64,000 nucleotides of DNA, taken from positions 3,410,001 to 3,474,000 of the forward strand of contig NC_014313.1 of NCBI RefSeq assembly GCF_000143145.1, given 5' to 3'. This document shows positions 13,232-50,535 of the stretch, one piece after another. The notes below the pieces were generated by a model that saw only the letters and a program-made list of their open reading frames with translations, was not told the DNA's origin and did not search any database. A program made the translations under genes and the position numbers. Position 1 is the first letter of the stretch, and each line of letters starts with the position of its first letter. Source of the stretch: Hyphomicrobium denitrificans ATCC 51888. Lineage in GTDB: Bacteria; Pseudomonadota; Alphaproteobacteria; Rhizobiales; Hyphomicrobiaceae.

Positions 13232-13588
13232 TTAGTGAGAAGGGCGGGCCACCCCGCCCACTGCCGACTGAAACGCTGTCCAGACGCCGCGCGGCAATTG
13301 CCATGACGCGGCCGGCTCTTCGTCTTCGAGGCGGCCCTGCATCCATTGCATGTGAGCGGCGACGCGCTGGTCGGCGCGTCCGAGCTCGTGCACGGCGAGT
13401 TCATCGGGGTGATCGAACAGGATCGCGAGACGGCGCTTGATCTGATCGGCGCTGAGCCAGGTGCGTACATACCAGACGCCCGTTCCGACGGGCGCGTATT
13501 CGGAGGCGATGTAGGGGAGCGAGAACGAAACGGTCCAGGTGTCTTGGTCGGGCGATTTCGGGGTGTGATGGACGAGATACGTTTTCAT
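13232..13588 (-). CDS. Small protein resembling its Cas2/SinR-like neighbour
   Basis: This 118-residue protein begins MKTYLVHHTPKS. Its middle (GVWYVRTWLSADQIKRRLAILF...DELAVHELGRADQRV) can be laid over NTWYVMSDREEVELEADLRELL...GLLIQATKRDAVL of the protein at 13806-14174. That suggests a shared ferredoxin-like fold. The acidic residue after the first strand, usual in Cas2-type proteins, is missing here (HHT in place of YDL). It lies beyond a terminator, so it is probably transcribed on its own. Function unknown. Confidence 0.55.
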   Translation of the reverse strand: MKTYLVHHTPKSPDQDTWTVSFSLPYIASEYAPVGTGVWYVRTWLSADQIKRRLAILFDHPDELAVHELGRADQRVAAHMQWMQGRLEDEEPAASWQLPRGVWTAFQSAVGGVARPSH

Positions 13589-13683
13589 GGGTGTCTACCG
13601 GGGGCGTTGGGGGGCGAAGACAAGAACGCGGAACGCAACTCACTCACACGCAAGTCCGGCTTTTGGGTCGTAGCCGGTTGGAG

Positions 13684-13719
13684 AAAAAAGGAGGCCCGGG
13701 ATCGGGGGGGATGATCCCG
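13684..13719 (-). terminator. Intrinsic terminator of the Cas2/SinR-like gene
   Basis: On the minus strand, CGGGATC (13719-13713) pairs with GATCCCG (13703-13697). It is followed by GGCCTCC and a run of six T residues (the A-run at 13684-13689 on the plus strand). It lies downstream of the gene ending at 13806. Confidence 0.7.
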
Positions 13720-13733
13720 AGGCACTCCGTCCT

Positions 13734-13799
13734 GGTCTTTGAGCGGGACGGACCCATTGGACGACGAAGGGGGAGACGGTCCCGCCCCGCCCAAAGACC
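13734..13799. other. Long hairpin just after the Cas2/SinR-like gene
   Basis: GGTCTTTG (13734-13741) pairs with CAAAGACC (13792-13799), and GCGGGAC (13743-13749) pairs with GTCCCGC (13779-13785). The hairpin begins seven bases after the stop codon at 13806 on the minus strand and has no T-run of its own. It may protect the 3' end of the mRNA or form part of the double-hairpin terminator region. Confidence 0.6.
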
Positions 13800-13805
13800 T
13801 GAAAC

Positions 13806-14174
13806 TCAGCCTGCTCTGGCAAATGGCAGCTCGGGCTCGAGCGGCTCGGACGCAACGGCCGGCAGCGACGGGAAGGCGATGATGTTGCCATCCGGCGCAA
13901 GATCGAGACCGGGGCGGCGCTGACGGAACCAGCGGAGCGACGTGTTGGTCAGCACCGCGTCGCGCTTGGTCGCCTGGATCAGCAATCCATCGTCCTCACC
14001 AAGCAGCTCTCTGAGGTCGGCTTCAAGCTCGACTTCCTCGCGATCTGACATCACGTACCAGGTGTTGACGAGAGGGCGGGCCCACTTGTCGCCGAGCCCC
14101 ATGATGAGCTGAGCGATGACGTGCTGATTGCGGTTCGGCTTGGCGAGATCGTACGAGATCAGATAGGTGCGCAT
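13806..14174 (-). CDS. Cas2/SinR-like small protein behind SOS boxes
   Basis: This 122-residue protein starts MRTYLISYDLAKPNRNQHVI. A first strand ending in an Asp (YDL, D9), a helix, a second strand (NTWYV) and a late strand (GLLIQATKR) follow the ferredoxin-like plan of Cas2 and of SinR-like proteins. A charged tail of about 40 residues follows. I chose the ATG at 14174, which has an AGGAGAG site nine bases upstream. Tandem GTTC-type LexA boxes lie 77-149 bp upstream, and a terminator follows. There is no CRISPR array or cas1 nearby, so this is not a CRISPR gene. Its substrate is unknown; a role in RNA or DNA cleavage under DNA damage is a guess. Confidence 0.7.
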   Translation of the reverse strand: MRTYLISYDLAKPNRNQHVIAQLIMGLGDKWARPLVNTWYVMSDREEVELEADLRELLGEDDGLLIQATKRDAVLTNTSLRWFRQRRPGLDLAPDGNIIAFPSLPAVASEPLEPELPFARAG

Positions 14175-14250: not shown

Positions 14251-14323
14251 GAACATAGGAAGAACATGCCACGACTCATCGCGCTTGTCCAGCGCTTGTT
14301 CTAAAAATGTTCTTGTGAAGTTC
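14251..14323 (-). promoter_or_regulatory. Cluster of alphaproteobacterial SOS (LexA) boxes
   Basis: Three GTTC half-sites lie at exactly 11-bp spacing (14298, 14309, 14320). They form two overlapping GTTC-N7-GTTC boxes with spacers TAAAAAT and TTGTGAA. A further box, GAAC-N7-GAAC (14251-14265), is the same motif on the other strand. GTTC-N7-GTTC is the established LexA site of alphaproteobacteria. The sites lie within an inverted repeat (GAACATGCCAC 14262-14272, GTGGCATGTCC 14332-14342), upstream of the leftward gene starting at 14174. The gene at 14363-14677 ends before this region. Confidence 0.75.
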
Positions 14324-14362
14324 TTAACATTGTGGCATGTCCAACCGCACGTCAGCGTGACG

Positions 14363-14677
14363 TCAGGCCTCAGGAAACAGGCTGAGCTGGCTGGGGGGAA
14401 TTGCGATCGGCACGCGGCGGTGGGGGCCGGGGTCGAAGCGAGGTTCGAGACCTGGAAAGCGGACCTGAAATTCCTCTAGGGCTCGCGCACGGCTGCCGGG
14501 AAATCGCGCCTCTTCCCAGATTTCGTACAGGCGGCGCGGATCGCAGGCGTAGCGCCGCTGCAGATCGATGGGCCGGATGCGGAGCCAGCGTGCGATCCAG
14601 ATGTCGACGGCATCGGCCTCCGTCAGCGGACGACGGGCTACGGCAGGCGGAGGTTCGACAAGGAACGCGGTGACCAT
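14363..14677 (-). CDS. Unknown protein, possibly DNA-binding
   Basis: This 104-residue product from the ATG at 14677 (MVTAFLVEPPPAV) has a helical, Arg-rich middle (TEADAVDIWIARWLRIRPIDLQ, then RRYACDPRRLYEIWEE) that could be a small helical nucleic-acid-binding domain. It ends with a PSQLSLFPEA tail. I do not recognise the family. QLSLF resembles a beta-clamp-binding peptide (QxxLF-like), which fits the neighbouring SOS boxes, but that is speculation. It ends 40 bp before the SOS-box cluster. Confidence 0.5.
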   Translation of the reverse strand: MVTAFLVEPPPAVARRPLTEADAVDIWIARWLRIRPIDLQRRYACDPRRLYEIWEEARFPGSRARALEEFQVRFPGLEPRFDPGPHRRVPIAIPPSQLSLFPEA

Positions 14678-50320: not shown

Positions 50321-50535
50321 CGCGCGTCCCGCTTTTCCGCGCCTCCTGGACTTTGTCCACAATTCTCGCAACGCACGAAAACCTTGATTTCGTTGCGGGC
50401 TCGATACTGTCAATCGAATATCATCGCACTGACAGAATCGCGCCTTCGCGTTGCCTGAATGTGACGGCTATTCTCTCTTCGTTCGCGGAACACACAGCCG
50501 AGTTGGTGACGTTCCAAGCGTCGAGGGAGTTTCAA

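Follow-up and report, generated by a model that had tools for sequence, protein, structure and literature searches.

The locus described here combines features that are known from separate systems. In the alphaproteobacterial LexA regulon the operator has the form GTTC-N7-GTTC, the motif published for Caulobacter (PMC12700426). Also in Caulobacter, GcrA is reported to activate methylated promoters that carry YGAKTCG, and LexA boxes may overlap GANTC sites (PMC7987155). BPSL1038, a nuclease of the Cas2/VapD type (PDB 7vxr), cleaves double-stranded DNA independently of divalent ions, and its host has no known CRISPR system (PMC10491678). The roles of Cas2 relatives outside CRISPR are mostly unclear. 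We analyzed a window of 64,000 nucleotides (the whole stretch of DNA) from the methylotroph Hyphomicrobium denitrificans ATCC 51888 and in it a gene that we call cas2A (13809..14174, minus strand; ATG at 14174, stop codon 13806-13808). It encodes a protein of 122 amino acids with a predicted Cas2 fold and the C-terminus ...EPELPFARAG, and is preceded by two opposed LexA-type boxes with a GANTC between them. We put the probability that LexA controls a Cas2-fold product here at about 0.82. A conserved, LexA-controlled cas2A beside the his genes would offer a concrete handle on the Cas2 relatives outside CRISPR.

Each ingredient of this locus is known. However, the open-access literature yielded no account of LexA control over a Cas2-fold gene and, as far as its accessible text goes, none of a LexA-GANTC-LexA promoter. 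No link of this gene to the SOS response was found there either, in agreement with the sequence-only reading, which had listed it as not a known SOS gene, and SOS control is not mentioned in the accessible part of the BPSL1038 paper (PMC10491678). With the alphaproteobacterial LexA regulon cas2A shares the operator, but it has two opposed, phased boxes around a promoter with GANTC, whereas lexA has one perfect box. Like the promoters of the GcrA/CcrM type, it has GANTC between putative -35 and -10 elements, but a double LexA operator is added. If this interpretation is true, the cas2A promoter is a compact natural case of SOS control and methylation-based cell-cycle control within a few base pairs.

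The proximal box, GTTCTTCCTATGTTC (14251..14265, minus strand), overlaps the putative -10 element and start point. The distal box (14298..14312, plus strand) has the opposite orientation and lies 47 bp from it, start to start. A third half-site forms a second, tandem box (14309..14323, plus strand), which overlaps the distal one and is variable among relatives. These are the positions at which the sequence-only reading had seen GTTC (14298, 14309 and 14320) and GAAC-N7-GAAC (14251-14265), and they hold. For comparison we used 74 regions upstream of cas2A orthologues, picked irrespective of boxes after 22 of 96 loci had been removed as duplicates, and aligned on the proximal box, which was preferred on ties. 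The proximal box is perfect in 73 of them. Looking for the same array before orthologues had been suggested as a check, and the opposed pair was indeed present in all 74 regions: perfect in 62 and with one mismatch in 12, at a spacing of 47 bp in 62 regions, 48 bp in 11 and 46 bp in one. Fifteen added loci contributed two new regions and brought these counts to 64/76 and 12/76. At the 66 loci from named genomes the pair is perfect in 58 and has one mismatch in 8, at 46-59 bp. The start codon lies 53 to 228 nt beyond the start of the proximal box; with the distance between the boxes fixed and that to the start codon variable, what is kept is the position of the boxes to each other rather than to the gene.

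The arrangement of the opposed pair is not a product of chance. It was absent from 7,400 dinucleotide shuffles and, at the same loci, from 1,003 further stretches of 330 nt. Of 60 related genomes, 32 have an orthologue of cas2A (32/36 within the family, 0/24 outside), and the pattern GAACN7GAAC-(29-35 nt)-GTTCN7GTTC occurs once per genome in 27 of the 36 family genomes, that of H. denitrificans included; all 27 pairs adjoin cas2A by coordinates. Among the 24 genomes that belong to other families of the order, one has the pair, and none of the 60 genomes has a match to the reversed control pattern. Across the class, sampled with 289 genomes and a spacer of 31-33, the pair occurred in 2 of the 288 besides the window genome. 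The double LexA operator of cas2A holds across a bacterial family. Single sites are different: GTTCN7GTTC is found four times in the window, where 2.8 are expected, and 136 times in the whole genome versus 79 for the reversed pattern, so that single sites often arise by chance.

The 66 loci of named genomes that add to this sample are mostly titled Hyphomicrobium, Filomicrobium or Hyphomicrobiaceae; the others come from bins named Proteobacteria, Alphaproteobacteria or Hyphomicrobiales, and five carry the titles Devosia (three), Bradyrhizobiaceae and Hyphomonadaceae. Among the close proteins, the one with the best name is from H. denitrificans 1NES1 (93%). A profile search of 397 genomes of the order matched 37, of which 21 are in the family and 16 are distant matches in other families. 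Two more loci come from family members: L225, with a perfect pair spaced 46 bp apart, and the divergent L224, described below. Nine distant loci (L226-L234) have no pair within 300 nt upstream, with one perfect box in two of the nine.

LexA control of cas2A is very likely, judging from the conservation of the boxes and from the identical motif before lexA, ssb and other repair genes of the same genome. The own lexA (L060) has GTTCTCGTCTCGTTC upstream, and the motif precedes lexA in 18 of 18 genus loci printed (further LexA-like matches, namely second copies, G016 and G020, were left out). Together with the Caulobacter motif (PMC12700426), these promoters bear out the earlier identification of GTTC-N7-GTTC as the alphaproteobacterial LexA site. 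A matrix built from six LexA-type sites of the genome, none of them from cas2A, scored the three cas2A boxes at 18.3, 15.0 and 13.5, ranks 1, 3 and 6 in the window, the proximal box being the top score of all 64 kb. The best score in five single-base-shuffled windows was 14.2, and the third box is therefore not above chance. The second-best match in the window is ATTCTCTCTTCGTTC at 50470-50484 (plus strand).

Two parts of the sequence-only reading did not survive comparison in full. It had described tandem as well as inverted boxes: the tandem boxes are present in the window, but the third half-site is not conserved (the outer box is perfect in 9 of 30 loci) and, its columns being variable, we rejected the tandem boxes as an essential unit. 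The inverted repeat GAACATGCCAC/GTGGCATGTCC, which was said to frame the array, was over-read. Its outer arm occurs in one of 30 loci, the window itself, and its inner arm overlaps the conserved -10 region; it was discarded as a functional element. On the other hand, that reading did not include the conserved GANTC, the promoter-like elements, the downstream paralogue cas2B or the C-terminal signal.

The promoter-like elements lie in and beside the spacer of the pair. The putative -35 element CTGGAC (14287..14292, minus strand) corresponds to CTNKAC in 66 of 74 spacers; in 64 of these 66 its distance to the proximal box is exactly 21 nt, and it has few changes on the tree described below. The putative -10 element CATGTT (14263..14268, minus strand) was placed by its spacing, 17 nt from TGGACA in the window; it overlaps the proximal box, and alignment columns -3 to 2 are conserved. 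With CATGTT at the -10 position, the start point would fall inside the proximal box. Between them stands GANTC, the recognition site of CcrM methylation (14273..14277), whose window context TGAGTCG on the minus strand meets YGAKTCG. GANTC is found in 68 of 74 spacers (70/76 with the added loci), the control CTNAG in 6 of 74. The base at N is C in 27, T in 25, G in 19 and A in 10 of 81 sites. On a tree of the 62 regions with 47-bp spacing, N changed 10 times versus 1, 4, 2 and 2 times for G, A, T and C, while the count was 11-24 for each of the 30 columns that follow the box downstream. A variable N with G, A, T and C held is the signature of a reader specific for GANTC. The genome has gcrA (PF07750, 172 bits) and a ccrM-like gene, a 384-codon frame with a RAMA domain above the cut-off and a methylase part read by eye; the RAMA domain occurs in CcrM. 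We consider it quite probable from this pattern that the GANTC is functional in the cas2A promoter, which suggests joint control by damage and cell cycle. Because the site is outside the LexA boxes, the damage and methylation inputs can be mutated separately.

How else could the conserved spacer be explained? The GANTC may have been kept for other causes, as a spacer or for LexA contacts, with cas2A controlled purely by LexA. GANTC easily overlaps LexA sites, and SOS genes such as imuA reportedly retain it without an apparent GcrA effect (PMC7987155). In Brucella the GcrA targets found by chromatin immunoprecipitation include lexA and uvrA, and the induction of lexA by an alkylating agent does not need GcrA (PMC6813329). 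Yet the cas2A site stands clear of both boxes, at 8-12 bp from the proximal one, and the pattern of changes within it, with N free and the other four bases held, points to a GANTC reader. The lexA gene itself also speaks against this explanation, since GANTC is missing from the 190 nt before lexA at 15 of the 18 loci listed, although six of seven other LexA-type-box stretches of the genome (280 nt each) contain one, at a background of about 1.5 per kb. We regard pure LexA control as unlikely. The last count also means that nearness of LexA boxes and GANTC may not be specific to cas2A, and the pairing may be wider; a fixed, conserved placement was demonstrated at cas2A only. GANTC also stands 11-12 nt upstream of the LexA-type box at the NrdJ (L131) and PA0069 (L132) genes. 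That the boxes are bound by some other direct-repeat regulator is very improbable: the motif is short, but it is identical to the one before lexA and several repair genes of this genome.

The protein was compared at the level of fold, domains and residues. The fold search gave a predicted ferredoxin fold like that of Cas2, with an aspartate on strand 1 (best E-value 1.8e-3; model confidence, pLDDT, 71), and PADLOC Cas2b matched at E 1.3e-5; the earlier description of the gene as Cas2/SinR-like stands as to Cas2. The fold and the aspartate are shared with CRISPR Cas2 proteins (5h1o, 1zpw, 4es3) and with the BPSL1038-type nucleases, 7vxr ranking seventh in the fold search. We presume the fold of SymE, an SOS-induced small protein, to be unrelated to that of cas2A. 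Tyr8-Asp9 is invariant in 74 of 74 distinct orthologues and Thr38 nearly so. In place of the D(X20)SST motif of BPSL1038 the protein has D9(X28)T38, and its C-terminal tail is another one (PMC10491678). From CRISPR Cas2 it differs by the conserved LexA operator, by the tail with NVIAFP, and by the lack of both a Pfam Cas2 match and a genomic Cas1 (PF01867 had no match in this genome and was positive in 9 of 14 control genomes). A role in CRISPR adaptation was rejected, as no Cas1 was found, and the product is predicted to be a CRISPR-independent Cas2-fold protein. Pfam and NCBIfam gave weak, unrelated rows with nothing credible, and a sequence search of solved structures with cas2A had no matches. 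The start was also considered at the upstream in-frame ATG 14279, but such starts vary or are missing among relatives, and M1-R2, read from 14174, is invariant across 26 members.

Several observations weigh against the picture of a Cas2-fold protein behind a LexA-GANTC-LexA promoter. On the protein side, Foldseek gave no match at E <= 0.001, unrelated ferredoxin-like folds come close by VIA (8.1-8.4 compared with 9.4), and the C-terminal third of the model is of low confidence. Pfam CRISPR_Cas2 is absent from the window protein, for which no family was matched, and appears in one of 26 members at E 0.28. On the promoter side, the -10 is poor and a promoter and terminator scan found no consensus promoter at cas2A, so that the promoter is deduced from conservation and spacing; 6 of the 74 spacers lack GANTC; and only 28 of the 74 regions fit YGAKTCG, the strict GcrA motif of Caulobacter. 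In a divergent orthologue beyond the 74 (L224) the perfect boxes are spaced at 35 and 66 bp, and Asp9 is replaced by Glu.

On the observed architecture, conservation, fold prediction and conserved residues we build the following mechanism, in which we infer that LexA and GcrA bind the promoter, that the gene is induced, and that the product is a nuclease and is turned over. Two LexA dimers on the opposed boxes would flank and cover the promoter and silence cas2A until DNA damage leads to RecA-stimulated cleavage of LexA and the promoter opens; this step is strongly supported. Methylation of GANTC, read by GcrA with sigma70, would probably tune firing to the replication state or cell cycle, a step that is fairly supported. 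A Cas2-fold dimer with the Asp9 pair at its center may then work on nucleic acid; that it does so as a nuclease is most likely by analogy with Cas2, VapD and BPSL1038, a step that is weakly supported. Finally, a protease of the ClpXP type would probably remove the product by way of its C-terminus of small residues. The penultimate residue is alanine in 74 of 74 orthologues; calling this end a ClpXP-type degron is our assumption. Taken together, cas2A probably acts upon chromosome damage, and by analogy its product is most likely a nucleic-acid cleaver or binder during the SOS response.

What the protein does then is a question with more than one answer, and nuclease activity as such we rate at somewhat less than an even chance. 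It may instead be a non-catalytic adaptor that binds nucleic acid or protein, perhaps at the replisome. The C-termini of 53 of 74 orthologues match [QE]x[EQ][LF]P[FLM], which we take to resemble the hexapeptide beta-clamp motif and keep as a lead only, the upstream neighbor of the gene has a QLSLF-type ending in 20 of 20 copies, and the aspartate was lost in the paralogue cas2B and replaced in L224. However, the C-terminal motif is missing in 21 of 74 orthologues, its first position in the window is Glu and not Gln, and an invariant Tyr8-Asp9 is what one would expect for catalysis; the adaptor is a serious possibility but a doubtful one. Less probable still, and in our view rather unlikely, is a damage-induced toxin that arrests growth or translation, in the way proposed for SOS-induced RNases, and is restrained by cas2B or an RNA. 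Such a toxin would fit the double LexA operator, the possible degron, the VapD/Cas2-type fold and the strong predicted hairpin between cas2A and cas2B, and it has a precedent in SymE, a small SOS-induced protein kept down by LexA, by an antisense RNA and by Lon (PMC1891008); LexA repression and possibly fast turnover are what cas2A would share with it. But no antitoxin-like partner was recognized, cas2B was not found in the approximately 1.5-kb flank of 10 of 30 loci, and hisA or hisH lies inside the cas2A flank at 29 of 30, unlike mobile toxin-antitoxin pairs. The most elaborate version of the nuclease proposal, in which a CRISPR-free Cas2 branch became a cell-cycle-gated SOS effector, released by a promoter that senses damage through LexA and the passing of the fork through GANTC methylation and GcrA, a short-lived nuclease recruited to the fork by its clamp peptide with a second clamp binder encoded upstream, is speculative and we think it improbable.

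Two small genes flank cas2A. Downstream lies cas2B (13235..13588, minus strand), a diverged Cas2-like paralogue without the aspartate (hhalign versus cas2A: 97% probability, E 8.8e-11); 20 of 30 loci were found to have it in their flank. The interval between the two genes (13589-13808) has a long GC-rich hairpin, with a predicted -91.6 kcal/mol over the whole 220 nt, and similar sequence in several relatives; it could attenuate or process the transcript. Upstream, beside hisA, a small helical protein (14366..14677, minus strand) ends in QLSLF, presumably a textbook beta-clamp-binding motif, and its C-terminus is Q[LMP]x[LMF]F in the 20 full copies started by ATG. It was not placed in the LexA unit, belongs to no family found, and has a best E-value of 0.84 in the fold search. 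Neither neighbor was recognized as an antitoxin.

Further candidates for the LexA regulon were noted in the genome. The LexA-type motif precedes two radical SAM genes, TIGR03916 and PA0069, one of which carries a DNA modification/repair name, and a pair that we take by eye to be imuA-imuB, the first gene having no family match. Boxes also stand before NrdJ, a class II, adenosylcobalamin-dependent ribonucleotide reductase, and a Beta_protein (PF14350) gene (L136), which from their boxes are possible further SOS genes. Of 22 GTTCN6TGTTC sites, eight are in named promoters (two at cas2A) and 14 in reading frames or unassigned. The lexA upstream regions (L060 and 17 other loci) share a second conserved element, GTACA-N9-TGTAC, which starts 7 nt downstream of the LexA box. 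Upstream of recA, all 18 loci listed out of 22 (among L091-L110; the own recA is not included) have GAAC-N7-GTAC where the canonical box would be.
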